Shown piece after piece: positions 14,004 to 22,622 of a stretch of DNA of 27,519 nt. Under the pieces are notes generated by a model, which did no database searches, was not told where the DNA came from, and worked only from the letters and a program-made list of their open reading frames with translations. Every line of letters starts with the position of its first letter. Positions within the stretch are counted from its first letter, which is position 1. The DNA comes from a virus: positions 1 through 27,519 of the IMG/VR virus record IMGVR_UViG_3300017528_000368. The stretch is one strand, 5' to 3'. A program made the translations under genes and the position numbers.

Positions 14004-14046
14004 GTGGCAGATCTTAGGAGTGGTTGAAAGGACTGATAGACCTGCG

Positions 14047-15747
14047 ATGACAATCGTACCGCCAGCTGCTGCTTTTTATGAGCGCGTCTCGAATGACGAA
14101 CTCGTCGAGCGCAACACGATCCGTAATCAGGACACCTCGCTGCACAAAACCTTCGACCAGCACTTCGGACTTGAGGCGAGCGAGCCCTGGACGTTCGTGG
14201 GTACGTTCGCTGATGATGGCGTCTCGGGCACGATTGACTTGGACCAGCGGCCCGACGGCGCGCGCCTTATGGCACTCATTCGCCGTGGCGAAGTCGACAT
14301 TGTGTGCGTGACCCGCGGTGATCGACTAACGCGCGATCGCGCCGGCGCGGAGGTCATCGCCGACGAGTTCTGGGGTCGCGATGTCACTATTCGCGCGGTC
14401 AGCGAGCACATCGACCTGACGACACCCGCAGGACGCTTGCAGTTCGCGCTAATGTGCGCTTTCGCCCACTACGAGCGCGAGCTTATTCGCGAGCGCACTA
14501 TGAATGGGCGCGCGCGCGTGGCCGGCGAGGGCAAGTTCATCAACGGCCCCATCCCTTTCGGCTATGACGTCGTAGACGGAATGCTGGTGCCCTCGCAGCA
14601 CGAGATCGAAGTCCTTGGTTGCACTGAGGCCGAGTTCGTCGAGCAGATGTACACACGCGTCAAGGCGGGTGAGAGCGCGCGCGCGTTGTGGGCGTGGCTG
14701 ATGGATTCGCGATTGCCCTCCGTTTATCGCTACTACAACAAGAAAGCGGAACGGCATCGCGTCAAGGTGTATCCACAATGGAAATACGCACGCGTGCGCG
14801 ACATTTTGCGGAGTACGACTTATTACGGACAGCGTGTCTTGAAGTACAGCCGTCCAGGCGCCGGGCGACTCAAGAAGCAACTCGAGCCGGTCGTCCAGGC
14901 CGTGCCGCCCCTCGTCAGCCGGCAGTTGTGGAACGACGTCGAACAGGCGATGCAGGGCCACACTGCGAATTTCCACAGTGATGACACTGACGGTTTCGTC
15001 TATCTGCTGAGTGGCAAACTCGTGTGTGGCTACTGTGGATTCAAACTCGGTGGCAATTACATCAAGCGCAGCAACGGACGGACCTATCTCTACTACGCGT
15101 GCACGCTCAAGTCACCGTCGCAGATGAACGCGCGCCGTCTCGGCACATCCTGTCCCGATGCGCCGCGACTCAACGGATTTGTATTCGAGGAGCGCGTACT
15201 CGAGATGATCGACGAGGTGGTGGCACATCCTGAGCAGATCCTCGATGCTCTGGCCGCGGAACAGCAGGTCCAGCGCGGTGCGGTCGATAGTCACACTCAG
15301 CGCATGCGTACCGTTCAGCAGCGCATTGCTAGGCTGCAGCGCGGCAGAGCGGAGTTATTGCGGAGTCTGCGTCAGGGCGATATCACCGCGGACGAGTTCC
15401 GTGAGCAATCGACGGCCACGACAATGGACCTCGCCGATGCACAGCAGGAGCTCGCGGCACTCGAGGCCGACAGCAACGTCGTACGCACGCTTGAGGAGCA
15501 GCTCAGCGAAGCACGTCAGGTAATCGACCTGCTAGCTGAGGAGTGGCCCAGGGCACGCGCCGAATGCGACCGCGTGACACTACGGGCGATGGTGCAGCCG
15601 CTCATTCAGAAGATTGTCGTGCGCAGGGACGAGTACGAGTACACCATTCTGTTTCACCGTTCTAGCAATACTGCCCAGTCCTGCGATTGCCCATCAATCA
15701 CTAGAACCATTCCGCTCGAACTCGGTGGCGGGCACGCAGCGGCCTAG
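14047..15747 (+). CDS. int: Large serine recombinase (phage integrase)
   Basis: A 566-residue recombinase from ATG 14047 (GTG 14020 would abut the AGGAG and is less likely). The resolvase domain, residues about 6-150, has FYERVS with catalytic Ser15, DDGVSGT, and the Arg motif RGDRLTRDRAG, then HYERELIRERT. A Recombinase domain follows (about 165-290; PFGYDVVDG...). Then comes a zinc ribbon with CGYCG at about 337 and a second Cys pair (YYACT, TSCPDA), and a coiled coil (about 400-500) with dense Gln/Arg/Glu heptads. The domain order is that of large serine integrases acting on attP/attB. Continuous phage genes on both sides argue that the genome is not integrated at this point. Confidence 0.95.
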   Translation: MTIVPPAAAFYERVSNDELVERNTIRNQDTSLHKTFDQHFGLEASEPWTFVGTFADDGVSGTIDLDQRPDGARLMALIRRGEVDIVCVTRGDRLTRDRAGAEVIADEFWGRDVTIRAVSEHIDLTTPAGRLQFALMCAFAHYERELIRERTMNGRARVAGEGKFINGPIPFGYDVVDGMLVPSQHEIEVLGCTEAEFVEQMYTRVKAGESARALWAWLMDSRLPSVYRYYNKKAERHRVKVYPQWKYARVRDILRSTTYYGQRVLKYSRPGAGRLKKQLEPVVQAVPPLVSRQLWNDVEQAMQGHTANFHSDDTDGFVYLLSGKLVCGYCGFKLGGNYIKRSNGRTYLYYACTLKSPSQMNARRLGTSCPDAPRLNGFVFEERVLEMIDEVVAHPEQILDALAAEQQVQRGAVDSHTQRMRTVQQRIARLQRGRAELLRSLRQGDITADEFREQSTATTMDLADAQQELAALEADSNVVRTLEEQLSEARQVIDLLAEEWPRARAECDRVTLRAMVQPLIQKIVVRRDEYEYTILFHRSSNTAQSCDCPSITRTIPLELGGGHAAA

Positions 15748-19484: not shown

Positions 19485-19775
19485 ATGCGCCTGGCTCGGA
19501 TGTATGGGTGGTGTGGTCGGCATGAGCGCGACAGCCGTGACGCGCGCGGCATCCACACGCTGCGGCATGACGACCACGTGTGTGGCTTGGGTTGGCCGGA
19601 CTGGACGTTCGTCAAGCCGGGCCGGCCGCCGAAGTTCCGTGAATTAAAGACCGAGCTGGGCCGCCTGACGCGTCACCAGCGCTACTGGCAACACCTCCTG
19701 CGCGCGGCCGGTGCGGATGTGGGGGTATGGCGCCCGTCCGATATCGAGCAGATCGTCGCGGAGCTTGCCGCGTGA
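19485..19775 (+). CDS. VRR-NUC (PD-(D/E)XK) nuclease
   Basis: A 96-residue nuclease of the VRR-NUC type, often linked to replication forks and Holliday-junction processing. GWPDWTFV supplies the catalytic Asp and FRELKTELGRLT the ExK pair; HQRYWQHLLRAAGADVGVWRP is the typical helix and strand end. VRR-NUC domains begin with a helix bearing a conserved acidic residue. That helix (ESHFEERVMRLARMYGW) is only complete if the frame is read upstream to about 19452, where the codon is ATT. The ATG at 19485 is used here as the conventional start. It overlaps the primase gene by GTGA. Confidence 0.82.
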   Translation: MRLARMYGWCGRHERDSRDARGIHTLRHDDHVCGLGWPDWTFVKPGRPPKFRELKTELGRLTRHQRYWQHLLRAAGADVGVWRPSDIEQIVAELAA

Positions 19776-21949
19776 CGACTGACACCAATGTGCGTCTGGT
19801 CGCGGCGCTCCACTACGCGGCCCTGGGCTGGCCGGTGGTGCCGTTGCACACGCCCGACGAGTTTGGCGCGTGCGACTGCCCGAAACGGACCGACTGCCCG
19901 AGCCCGGGAAAACACCCGCGGACCAGGAAGGGGCTGGACGACGCCACCACCGACGTGGTGCGCATCAAACGCTGGTGGGGCATCTGGCCCGAGGCGAACA
20001 TCGCCATCGATTTAGCCAGGAGTGGTCTGGTCGATATCGCCCCGGACAGCATCGAGTGGTTCGCCGAGTTCACCGCCCGCGGCCTCCCGCAAACCCTGCG
20101 CTTCGCCTCAGGCGGTGGCGAAGGTCATGCGCATCACCTGTTTGCGCGGCCAACTGGCTGCGGCATCCACCGCGACTGCCACACCGGTCAGTACGACGTG
20201 CTCAGCGCCGGCTACGCGGTCATGCCACCCAGCTTGCACGCCAGCGGACGCACGTACACCTGGTTGGAGCCGGCCGACGGCGTCGTGCTGATGTCGCCGA
20301 CGACGCCGGCGCCGGACTGGGCGGTGGACATGCTGACACGCCAGCAGAGGTCCTCCAGCGCTCCGCCAGACGATGTTGACGGTCCACCCGTCGTCCTGCA
20401 CGGCGAGGCAGACGAACGCTGGTACGGGCGTGTGTACCAGCGCAAACCCGATGGCAGCGTCGATCGCAGCTACAGCCTGTGGTGGCTGGCGGTGGTGCTG
20501 CTCGAGGCGGGCTTGCGGCGCGACTACGTCCAGCACGCTCTGGCCGAGCGTGACGTCGCCCTGGGCTGGACGAAGTTCACCGGTCGGCGCGACGCCGCGG
20601 AGCGCTATCGCGTGATCGTCGAGCGTGCCGTGGCTGGTCAGGGACCTGGTCGCGCGGGTCAAGCATCTGCGTCAGGTGGCGTTAGGACGACGCCGCCAGG
20701 CACGCCGGTCATGCCTGATACGCCGTGGCCGGAGCCGCTCGCGGACGTCGCGTTCTACGGGCCGCTGGGCGAGTTCGTCCTGGCGGCGTCACGCCAGAGC
20801 GAGGCGGATCCGGCGGCCATCCTGGCCATGACCATGTCGGCCGTGTCGGCCGTGCTTGATCCGCGAACGGGTGGGTACGCGGCGAACGCCTGGCACCCGA
20901 TTCGCTTGTCGAGCGTCATCGTCGGACCGACGGCCAAGGGGCGCAAGGGTAGCGCCAGCAAGATCGCCGAAGCGGTCGCGCGCCTGGCGGATCCGATCTT
21001 CGTCGACCACATCGTCGAAGGGCTCAGCTCCGGCGAGGGTGTGATCTGGGCGATCCGCGATGCGATCCAGAAGTGGGACCTACGCAAGCAGGAGTGGGTC
21101 ACCGAAGACCCCGGTATCGACGACAAACGCGTGCTGGTGGTGGAGTCGGAATTCGCGAACGCGTTGCGTGTGCTGGAGCGCGAGGGCAACACCCTGTCGG
21201 CGGTGCTGCGGCGTGCCTGGGACCTTCCACCCAACGGCGTGTTGCGCATGCTGACCAAGACCTCGCCGGCGCGCTCCACCGGCGCGCACGTGGTGATCGC
21301 CGGTCACGTCACCCGTGACGAGCTGCTGCATTACGTCGATCAGACCGAACTCGTCAACGGTTTCGCCAACCGCTTCCTGTGGTTCGCGGCACGTCGTCAC
21401 CAGGAGCTGCCCTTCGGCGAGCAGGTCAATCGGGTGCTGATGGGCGAGTTCGCCAGTTGCGTGGCCCAGGCCGCGGCCTGGACTCAAGCAGGTCACCACA
21501 TGGGCTGGGCGTTTGAAACCCGTGCGTCGTGGGAAGAGGCATACCACCAGCTCGGCCGCGCTGGCGCGGGGATGCATGGCGCGGTCACCGCGCGTGGTGA
21601 GCCACAGGTGCTGCGCATCAGCCAGCTGTTCGCGGCACTCGACCAGACCAACCAGATCTCGGTGGCTCACCTCGAGGCGGCCATGGCCATCTGGGACTAC
21701 GTTGATCGCACGTGCCGCTGGATCTTCGGCGACATCGTGGGTGATCGGCACGCGGACGACATCCTGCTTGGTCTGCGGACCGAAGGCCCGAAGACGCGTA
21801 CGGAGATTTCCAGCTACTTGGGCAGGAACGTCAACAGCGCGGCGATCAGCCGTGCGCTCGCGGTGCTGCATCGGGCTGGTCTGGTGGACGTCTCGAGCGT
21901 GTCGACCAGTCGGCGCGGACGCCAAGCAGAAACGTGGAGGGCCCTGTGA
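19772..21949 (+). CDS. Prim-Pol / DUF3987 replicase (primase-helicase-like)
   Basis: A 725-residue protein starting at GTG 19772 (GTGA overlap). Residues 7-130 form a bifunctional primase-polymerase domain: HYAALGWPVVPLHTP, zinc-type Cys34/Cys36/Cys42/His48, then SGLVDIAPDS and GGGEGHAHHLF. The usual DxD is replaced by Asp88-Ile-Ala-Pro-Asp92. Residues about 330-570 form a DUF3987 domain with a loosened Walker A, GPTAKGRKGS (385-394), a Walker B-like VLVVESE (454-460), and later GHVTRDELL and LVNGFANRFLWFAARR. A winged-helix-like end follows. Such fusions initiate replication of phages and plasmids. The active-site changes raise doubt about polymerase and ATPase activity. An AT-rich inverted repeat follows. 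Confidence 0.85.
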   Translation: MTTDTNVRLVAALHYAALGWPVVPLHTPDEFGACDCPKRTDCPSPGKHPRTRKGLDDATTDVVRIKRWWGIWPEANIAIDLARSGLVDIAPDSIEWFAEFTARGLPQTLRFASGGGEGHAHHLFARPTGCGIHRDCHTGQYDVLSAGYAVMPPSLHASGRTYTWLEPADGVVLMSPTTPAPDWAVDMLTRQQRSSSAPPDDVDGPPVVLHGEADERWYGRVYQRKPDGSVDRSYSLWWLAVVLLEAGLRRDYVQHALAERDVALGWTKFTGRRDAAERYRVIVERAVAGQGPGRAGQASASGGVRTTPPGTPVMPDTPWPEPLADVAFYGPLGEFVLAASRQSEADPAAILAMTMSAVSAVLDPRTGGYAANAWHPIRLSSVIVGPTAKGRKGSASKIAEAVARLADPIFVDHIVEGLSSGEGVIWAIRDAIQKWDLRKQEWVTEDPGIDDKRVLVVESEFANALRVLEREGNTLSAVLRRAWDLPPNGVLRMLTKTSPARSTGAHVVIAGHVTRDELLHYVDQTELVNGFANRFLWFAARRHQELPFGEQVNRVLMGEFASCVAQAAAWTQAGHHMGWAFETRASWEEAYHQLGRAGAGMHGAVTARGEPQVLRISQLFAALDQTNQISVAHLEAAMAIWDYVDRTCRWIFGDIVGDRHADDILLGLRTEGPKTRTEISSYLGRNVNSAAISRALAVLHRAGLVDVSSVSTSRRGRQAETWRAL

Positions 21950-21953
21950 TCGA

Positions 21954-22063
21954 ATTAATTCGTATTTTTCCTCGCGCGCGATGTTCTGAAAAACACGCAA
22001 GACCAGCTGACCGGAAAAATGTCGATTTCTGGAGAGTCGCGCGCGAGGAAAAAACGAATTAAT
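21954..22063. repeat. Long inverted repeat, origin or translational switch candidate
   Basis: Arms at 21954-21981 and 22037-22063 are complementary over 27-28 bases with one bulge (ATTAATTCG, a T-run, then CCTCGCGCGCGA). They flank a 55-base AT-richer loop. The left end is also a perfect 12-base palindrome, CGAATTAATTCG (21951-21962). The right arm contains GAGGAA, the likely ribosome site, and reaches the ATG at 22062. The repeat fills the only gap in this operon region, directly after the replicase. It could be a replication origin, an RNA hairpin masking the start, or both. Confidence 0.75.
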
Positions 22064-22622
22064 GGCTAGCTGGGGTCGCTGCAGGCGCTGCGGAGGGCGA
22101 ATCTGGTGGGGTACCAGTCCGTTCAGCACTGGTCGTGCCTTTCCGTTCGACGACGACCAGGAGCAACAATCGCACTTCGGGACCTGCTCGGCACAGGAGT
22201 GGGTCACCGACAGCCAGGGCGGACGCCACAGCGTCAGTACGTGTCGCGCGTGCAACGCCAAGGTGTGGTGGGACACAACGCACAGCGGCAAGCGGCGTCC
22301 GATGGACGTCGAGGGCACTGCGGCGACGTGGACGTGTCACCTGGACACGTGCGTCGGCGTGGCACCGGGCGCAGGTGGCGAGGAGTACGACGCTGCCTGG
22401 GCGCGGCAGCAGCAGGCGCAGGTGCTCGCCATTCCATCGGAGCTGTGGCTGTCCGAGCTGGGTCTGAGCTGGCCGTGCACGCTGGCTGAAGCCACTCGGG
22501 CGTTCCGCCGGCTGGCGCTGACGCACCACCCGGATATGGGCGGCAACGTGTCGGACTTCGTACGCATCCGGCTGGCGTACGACCGGCTCAAGGAGCTTCT
22601 AGCCCAGGAGGTCGAGGCATGA
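22062..22622 (+). CDS. Twin zinc-finger protein with C-terminal J domain
   Basis: A 186-residue protein. Two similar zinc units appear: CRRCGGRIWWGTS...PFD...H...C (residues 7-42) and CRACNAKVWWDTT...PMD...H...C (61-97). Each has CxxCxxxxWWxT and a later His and Cys, giving a CCHC pattern. Residues about 140-180 form a J domain: LAEATRAFRRLALTHHPDMGG with the HPD triad at 156-158, then RIRLAYDRLKEL. J domains stimulate Hsp70 ATPase, so the protein may recruit host DnaK to a replication complex. The start at 22062 lies in the right arm of the upstream inverted repeat. The next gene overlaps by ATGA. Confidence 0.8.
   Translation: MASWGRCRRCGGRIWWGTSPFSTGRAFPFDDDQEQQSHFGTCSAQEWVTDSQGGRHSVSTCRACNAKVWWDTTHSGKRRPMDVEGTAATWTCHLDTCVGVAPGAGGEEYDAAWARQQQAQVLAIPSELWLSELGLSWPCTLAEATRAFRRLALTHHPDMGGNVSDFVRIRLAYDRLKELLAQEVEA

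Follow-up and report, generated by a model that had tools for sequence, protein, structure and literature searches.

Known and putative origins 3' of replicase genes

Origins of PICI/SaPI elements are located immediately 3' of rep and contain two iteron sets (PMC6092414, PMC7581432). The putative origin of pRN1 is a stem-loop of ~100 bp (21-nt stem, 58-nt loop) situated 3' of a replicase with Prim-Pol, helicase and winged-helix parts. This stem-loop is required for replication; in stem-loops of this type the structure is kept while the sequence is not, and one was also proposed for phage BIP-1 (PMC4234260). The helicase of pRN1 belongs to SF3, and its authors found neither iterons nor a recognised motif (PMC4234260). 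The alpha protein of phage P4 is a primase-helicase with a winged helix that binds the origin repeats (PMC4234260). DUF3987 proteins, which in mobile elements are found fused to Prim-Pol domains, are predicted to be helicases, and replication of PICMI satellites needs a putative primase, of a family modelled with DUF3987 (PMC5862659, PMC10803314). Phages, islands and cryptic elements all encode replication proteins of DUF3987 type, yet neither an origin nor iterons were found described for them in the open-access literature covered.

An element close in form to some of these was found in the window, i.e. the whole stretch of 27,519 nt that was analysed here (IMG/VR record IMGVR_UViG_3300017528_000368). 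It is an inverted repeat lying between a replicase gene and the gene of a J-domain protein, and it is probably a binding site of the replicase and most likely the replication origin of the phage (probability roughly 0.8 for this reading). Replicase-specific inverted iterons at the replicase stop match the PICI/SaPI origins and the form of the pRN1 stem-loop, and it is from this match that we infer an origin. An earlier sequence-only reading of the same DNA knew of no named element of such form, which is not fully correct, since both the PICI origins and the putative origin of pRN1 come close. The repeat is composed of the following features:

21954..21981, + strand: 5' arm of the inverted repeat (arm comparison)
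21955..21963, + strand: iteron TTAATTCGT, joint best window match to the family motif (motif scan)
21967..21975, + strand: weaker iteron-like unit TTTCCTCGC, rank 19 in the window (motif scan)
21982..22036, no strand: spacer (loop), 45% GC versus 64% for the window (composition)
22037..22063, - strand: 3' arm of the inverted repeat (arm comparison)
22043..22051, - strand: weaker iteron-like unit TTTCCTCGC, rank 19 in the window (motif scan)
22054..22062, - strand: iteron TTAATTCGT, inverted copy, joint best window match (motif scan)

Inverted repeat of the window

The arms (28 and 27 nt) enclosed a 55-nt loop, displayed one bulge and shared a 17-nt core that was 100% complementary. This was the top-scoring inverted repeat of the window (score 17, runner-up 14); in 20 shuffles of the window the best score had a mean of 11.8 and a maximum of 13. 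Folding gave z = -6.1 as RNA and z = -6.7 as DNA, and none of 200 shuffles was equally stable. Coordinates, fold and shuffles hence bore out the arms of 27-28 bases and the 55-base loop of the sequence-only reading. Its layout was also recovered: the repeat begins 4 nt past the replicase stop (21949), directly after the primase gene as had been claimed, and it runs into the next start codon and ribosome site, the 3' arm holding a GAGG and closing with the first two letters (A and T) of the J-domain start codon (22062). The 12-base palindrome reported at its edge is indeed present (CGAATTAATTCG, 21951-21962), but its counterpart in the related IMG/VR contig L004 is TGAATTATTTCG; it is thus not conserved and not the functional unit.

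A strong stem directly past a stop codon could serve as transcription terminator of the replicase gene, and a terminator-like hairpin with a T run is found at this junction in another viral contig, L057. In the window and in L004, however, the stem is built as T-run/GC/loop/GC/A-run, which is the wrong way round on either strand, and a scan for intrinsic terminators (GC stem followed by a T run) found none at the junction. Termination is accordingly a most improbable function. Just as improbable are an artefact of assembly and a degraded small mobile element that has left its terminal inverted repeats behind. The compact 110-bp inverted-repeat form would suit such a remnant, but contigs assembled independently from different metagenomes have the feature at the same place, with arms that had diverged and were yet complementary, and a second copy was present neither in the window nor in the L004 contig.

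Replicase and J-domain genes

The genes on both sides of the repeat displayed the following features:

19727..21949, + strand: replicase gene, with Prim-Pol N-terminus, DUF3987-like MCM-type AAA+ ATPase and C-terminal winged helix (domain searches, model, fold search)
21746..21943, + strand: winged-helix domain of the replicase (residues 674-739), the putative iteron reader (AlphaFold2 model; HTH_20, E=2e-4)
21809..21811, + strand: Ser695 codon, covarying imperfectly with iteron positions 5-6 (z 11.3)
21827..21829, + strand: Asn701 codon, covarying with iteron position 9 (Asn/T, His/C; z 41.7 and out-of-sample loci)
22062..22622, + strand: gene of the J-domain (HPD) protein, with its start codon inside the 3' arm (Pfam, HPD motif)

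The Prim-Pol domain (PF09250, E = 4e-28) confirmed the primase/replicase that had been read upstream of the repeat. A replicase fragment modelled by AlphaFold2 with a 61-sequence alignment (mean pLDDT 93) displayed an MCM-like AAA+ domain and a C-terminal winged helix, with helices and wing at fragment residues 348-413; fold search returned MCM helicases. The same fragment gave no match to Pfam DUF3987 (PF13148), in which it differs from described DUF3987 proteins, while relatives L091, L114 and L145 did match. The gene (19727-21949) appeared to be a mosaic, its Prim-Pol half being like L056 and its C-terminal half like L004.

Compared with pRN1, the window displayed a repeat of similar dimensions (27/28-nt arms, 55-nt loop), likewise 3' of a replicase that carries an archaeo-eukaryotic primase (PF09250) and a modelled winged helix. 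It differed in its ATPase, which is DUF3987-like with an MCM fold instead of an SF3 helicase, and in its arms, which contain iterons matched to the winged helix. No obvious 9-bp iterons were seen by eye in the stem-loop stretch of BIP-1. P4 alpha is distinguished from the window replicase by a primase of Toprim type and by other repeats.

The J-domain gene of the sequence-only reading stood in part: the HPD motif is present, but the Pfam DnaJ match (E = 9e-5) fell under the curated cut-off, so that this assignment is weak. The protein (22062-22622) displays CxxC pairs in addition to HPD and, in those relatives that carry it, is encoded directly 3' of the replicase junction. No relative of it was found in the genome contigs searched. 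DnaJ and DnaK act on lambda P and P1 RepA, and the J-domain protein might likewise bring DnaK of the host to the initiator complex. Elsewhere in the window, a large serine recombinase (14020-15747) suggests a temperate phage.

Distribution across bacterial phyla

A scan of bacterial genomes with the C-terminal half of the replicase found 151 relatives, of which 80 loci from many phyla were read. Host names of these loci are uncertain because they are mostly metagenome bins. Adding the window and the viral contigs L004, L078 and L079 to the 79 of 80 with enough downstream sequence gave 83 loci. The top inverted repeat of the locus was positioned at the replicase stop in 43 of them (~3 expected from length), and the first arm lay within 30 nt of the stop in 84% of the two-armed loci. 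Family junctions were usually composed of tandem 9-bp iterons, TT(A/T)N(T/G/C)(T/G)CG(C/T), often as inverted triplets. Of 82 loci, 45.6 had their best 9-bp array of three copies at the replicase stop, versus 3.1 expected, other periods reaching 2.5-12.5, and 33 of the 54 loci with arrays contained both orientations. With the thresholds used, no top-ranked repeat was located at the stop in about half of the family loci, and about 30 loci had no clean array. Spacers were not AT-rich on average (GC 0.604 versus 0.603 for the locus). The isolate phages P318, Ibantik, Success and Ponzi possess DUF3987-like genes without such an element at the stop.

Two further features were noticed among these loci. 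L098 and L142 may represent a second iteron class, with a period of 11 (12.5 loci versus 3.1 expected). Many bacterial loci (L091, L093, L097, L104, L112, L114 and L115) displayed a small ORF starting with M(S/G)xYLE(M/I)A, located after the inverted iterons or in the spacer.

Like PICI/SaPI origins, the site is found immediately 3' of the initiator gene in the window and in 43 of 83 family loci overall, and the initiator would read its iterons by a C-terminal domain. Where PICI/SaPI origins have two iteron sets, 33 of the 54 family loci with arrays displayed two sets, and each arm of the window contained a strong unit and a weak one. Where they have an AT-rich segment between the sets, the window spacer had 45% GC versus 64% for the window, and the family mean equalled that of the locus. 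PICI/SaPI initiators are of SaPI Rep, DUF927 or Primase_Cterm/D5 type, in contrast to the Prim-Pol and DUF3987-like combination found here. The iterons differ as well, those considered here having a 9-bp period and being present in a tailed phage as well as in hosts from many phyla.

When the window, L004, L078 and L079 were left out of the training, the motif model placed its two best scores, among ~55,000 window positions, at the two arm tips (TTAATTCGT). The same model again gave its two best scores at the arm tips in the 41.9-kb L004 contig. Since the arms are complementary, two tip matches are one event and not independent; the chance that the top match lands in the 110-bp stretch is about 110/27519 by length. 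TTANTTCGY was present at least twice in 5 of 100 shuffles. The window copy is a degenerate version of the family element, as each arm contains one perfect and one weak unit (TTTCCTCGC) with a spacing of 12 instead of 9; no clean array of three 9-bp copies was called.

Covariation between winged helix and iterons

Iteron position 9 covaried with replicase residue 701 (window numbering). Among 55 loci, His was associated with C in 29 of 29 cases and Asn with T in 25 of 26 (Fisher p 8e-15), with a z of 41.7 where the next among 398 columns reached 5.7. GC content was equal between the two classes, and the sole exception, L121, carries at its stop a perfect array of the C type as well. Labels of bacterial loci were automatic array calls; those of the window (taken from its arm tips), L004 and L078 were set by hand. 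Asn701 and Ser695 of the window predict TTNNTTCGT and its arm tips do read TTNNTTCGT, a match that is not independent because of the hand label, the rule resting on the other 52 loci.

On a tree built from the helicase part alone, winged helix excluded, each trait changed about 15 times. Independent pairs on well-supported (starred) branches agreed in four of four cases, a number too small to give significance at 0.05 in a sign test alone. New loci from three phyla (<85% identity to the training set) provided eight His/C and nine Asn/T rows and none against; as two of the eight His/C rows are one locus, 16 of 16 distinct new loci with His or Asn agreed. Array-less loci also followed the residue 701 rule (9/9). 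Residue 695 tended to covary with iteron positions 5-6, Ser being associated with TT and Arg with GT/CG (z 11.3). This tendency is real but had two out-of-sample exceptions, and a position 5-6 code was dropped as a rule.

Covariation of the last iteron base with a winged-helix residue strongly supports the view that the replicase reads the repeats, as judged from sequence, by its C-terminal winged helix. It appears rather probable, moreover, that MCM-like primase-helicase initiators across phyla carry their origin at their own stop as inverted 9-bp iterons, in which His or Asn sets the last base to C or T, respectively, and that this choice was switched many times. A stop-codon motif, together with one residue predicting one base, would allow origins to be located in many elements that are so far uncharacterised, and the match of initiator and origin to be tested directly. 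If the class is real, some 'stem-loop' origins would be inverted iterons and not structures recognised as hairpins. The iterons also offer a possible answer, at least for this related class, to the question raised by pRN1 as to which sequence motif the winged helix reads.

Putative initiation at the repeat

By analogy with the described origins, binding, hexamer loading, melting and initiation may proceed as follows. The winged helix would recognise the 9-bp iterons, of which the clearest pair (TTAATTCGT) is located at the opposed arm tips. A set of replicase would assemble at each arm, the two sets facing in opposite directions. The AT-richer segment that separates them would be opened by the MCM-like ATPase, and priming would fall to the Prim-Pol domain.

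The same binding evidence (motif match, covariation, new loci) fits equally well a regulatory site bound by the replicase, for repression of the J-domain operon or for handcuffing in copy control, with replication starting elsewhere. Control through initiator sites is common in iteron plasmids, and in the window the 3' arm covers the start region of the next gene. The repeat, however, lies 3' of the replicase, and its link to the stop codon holds across phyla whose downstream genes differ. The known elements that most resemble it in form and are placed likewise are origins (PMC6092414, PMC4234260). A purely regulatory role is therefore unlikely. An origin at the repeat, as proposed in the sequence-only reading, agrees with its tracking of the replicase family, the tip iterons and the covariation, but gained no support from the GC-skew check: extremes were found at 11.9 and 26.1 kb of the window and not at the repeat. 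GC skew is not decisive here, as it follows transcription and the sequences are fragments.

Relatives in viral contigs

A DNA search of the junction among phage records gave no match, no annotated phage displaying similar DNA, and a plasmid search gave one weak match. L004 encodes a replicase 69% and a J-domain protein 82% identical to those of the window, with 33-nt arms at the same place. In L078 (replicase C-terminal half 44% identical), arms of ~50 nt and of different sequence occupy the same place at the replicase stop. Conservation of pairing, suggested with the sequence-only reading as a check, was observed, the arms being still complementary in L004 and L078, although a direct comparison of window and L004 gave full compensation for a single pair; two other pairs contain a mismatch in one or the other sequence, and the window lacks one pair (bulge). 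In this weak comparison of two sequences, compensatory change was no better than in shuffles. When viral contigs were examined for a paired TCGCGCGCGA pattern, the L004 contig was the only homologue, the others being chance or unrelated matches.

Phages that share the J-domain gene but are more distantly related carried other replicases, and the junction of L056 contains a 21-bp palindrome. L057 and L061 possess nearly identical J-domain genes, identity starting at the J-domain start codon, behind unrelated replicases and junctions; the junction thus goes with the replicase and not with the J-domain gene. This bears on the RNA form that the sequence-only reading had thought to mask translation, i.e. 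a hairpin in a polycistronic transcript hiding the ribosome site and start codon of the J-domain gene. Such a hairpin is suggested by the very stable RNA fold that is predicted, for both the window and L004, to span the start codon, and by the GAGG and start of the ATG inside the 3' arm. The Shine-Dalgarno-like GAGG is nevertheless GAGA in L004, the L057/L061 pair and the distribution across phyla tie the feature to replicases, and pairing provided one compensated pair. An Rfam search with the junction returned no match at threshold, its sole match being sub-threshold and due to chance. Masking by RNA is accordingly not favoured and very unlikely, and a replicase-bound origin is preferred.

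Other particularities were encountered in these contigs. In L078 (4054-6194), the Prim-Pol and helicase ORFs are in different frames, through a contig error or a real frameshift. A repeated palindromic motif of operator-like appearance, GTGCCCTCGCGCGCGAGGGAGTAAC, was found near 11957 in L023 and near 13626 in L047. L061 (4818-5001) and L068 (4650-4800) encode another replicase type and display, at the same junction, their own iterons (CCCTTCTGTCAC; GGGTTTTGTCGACAG) and a palindrome.
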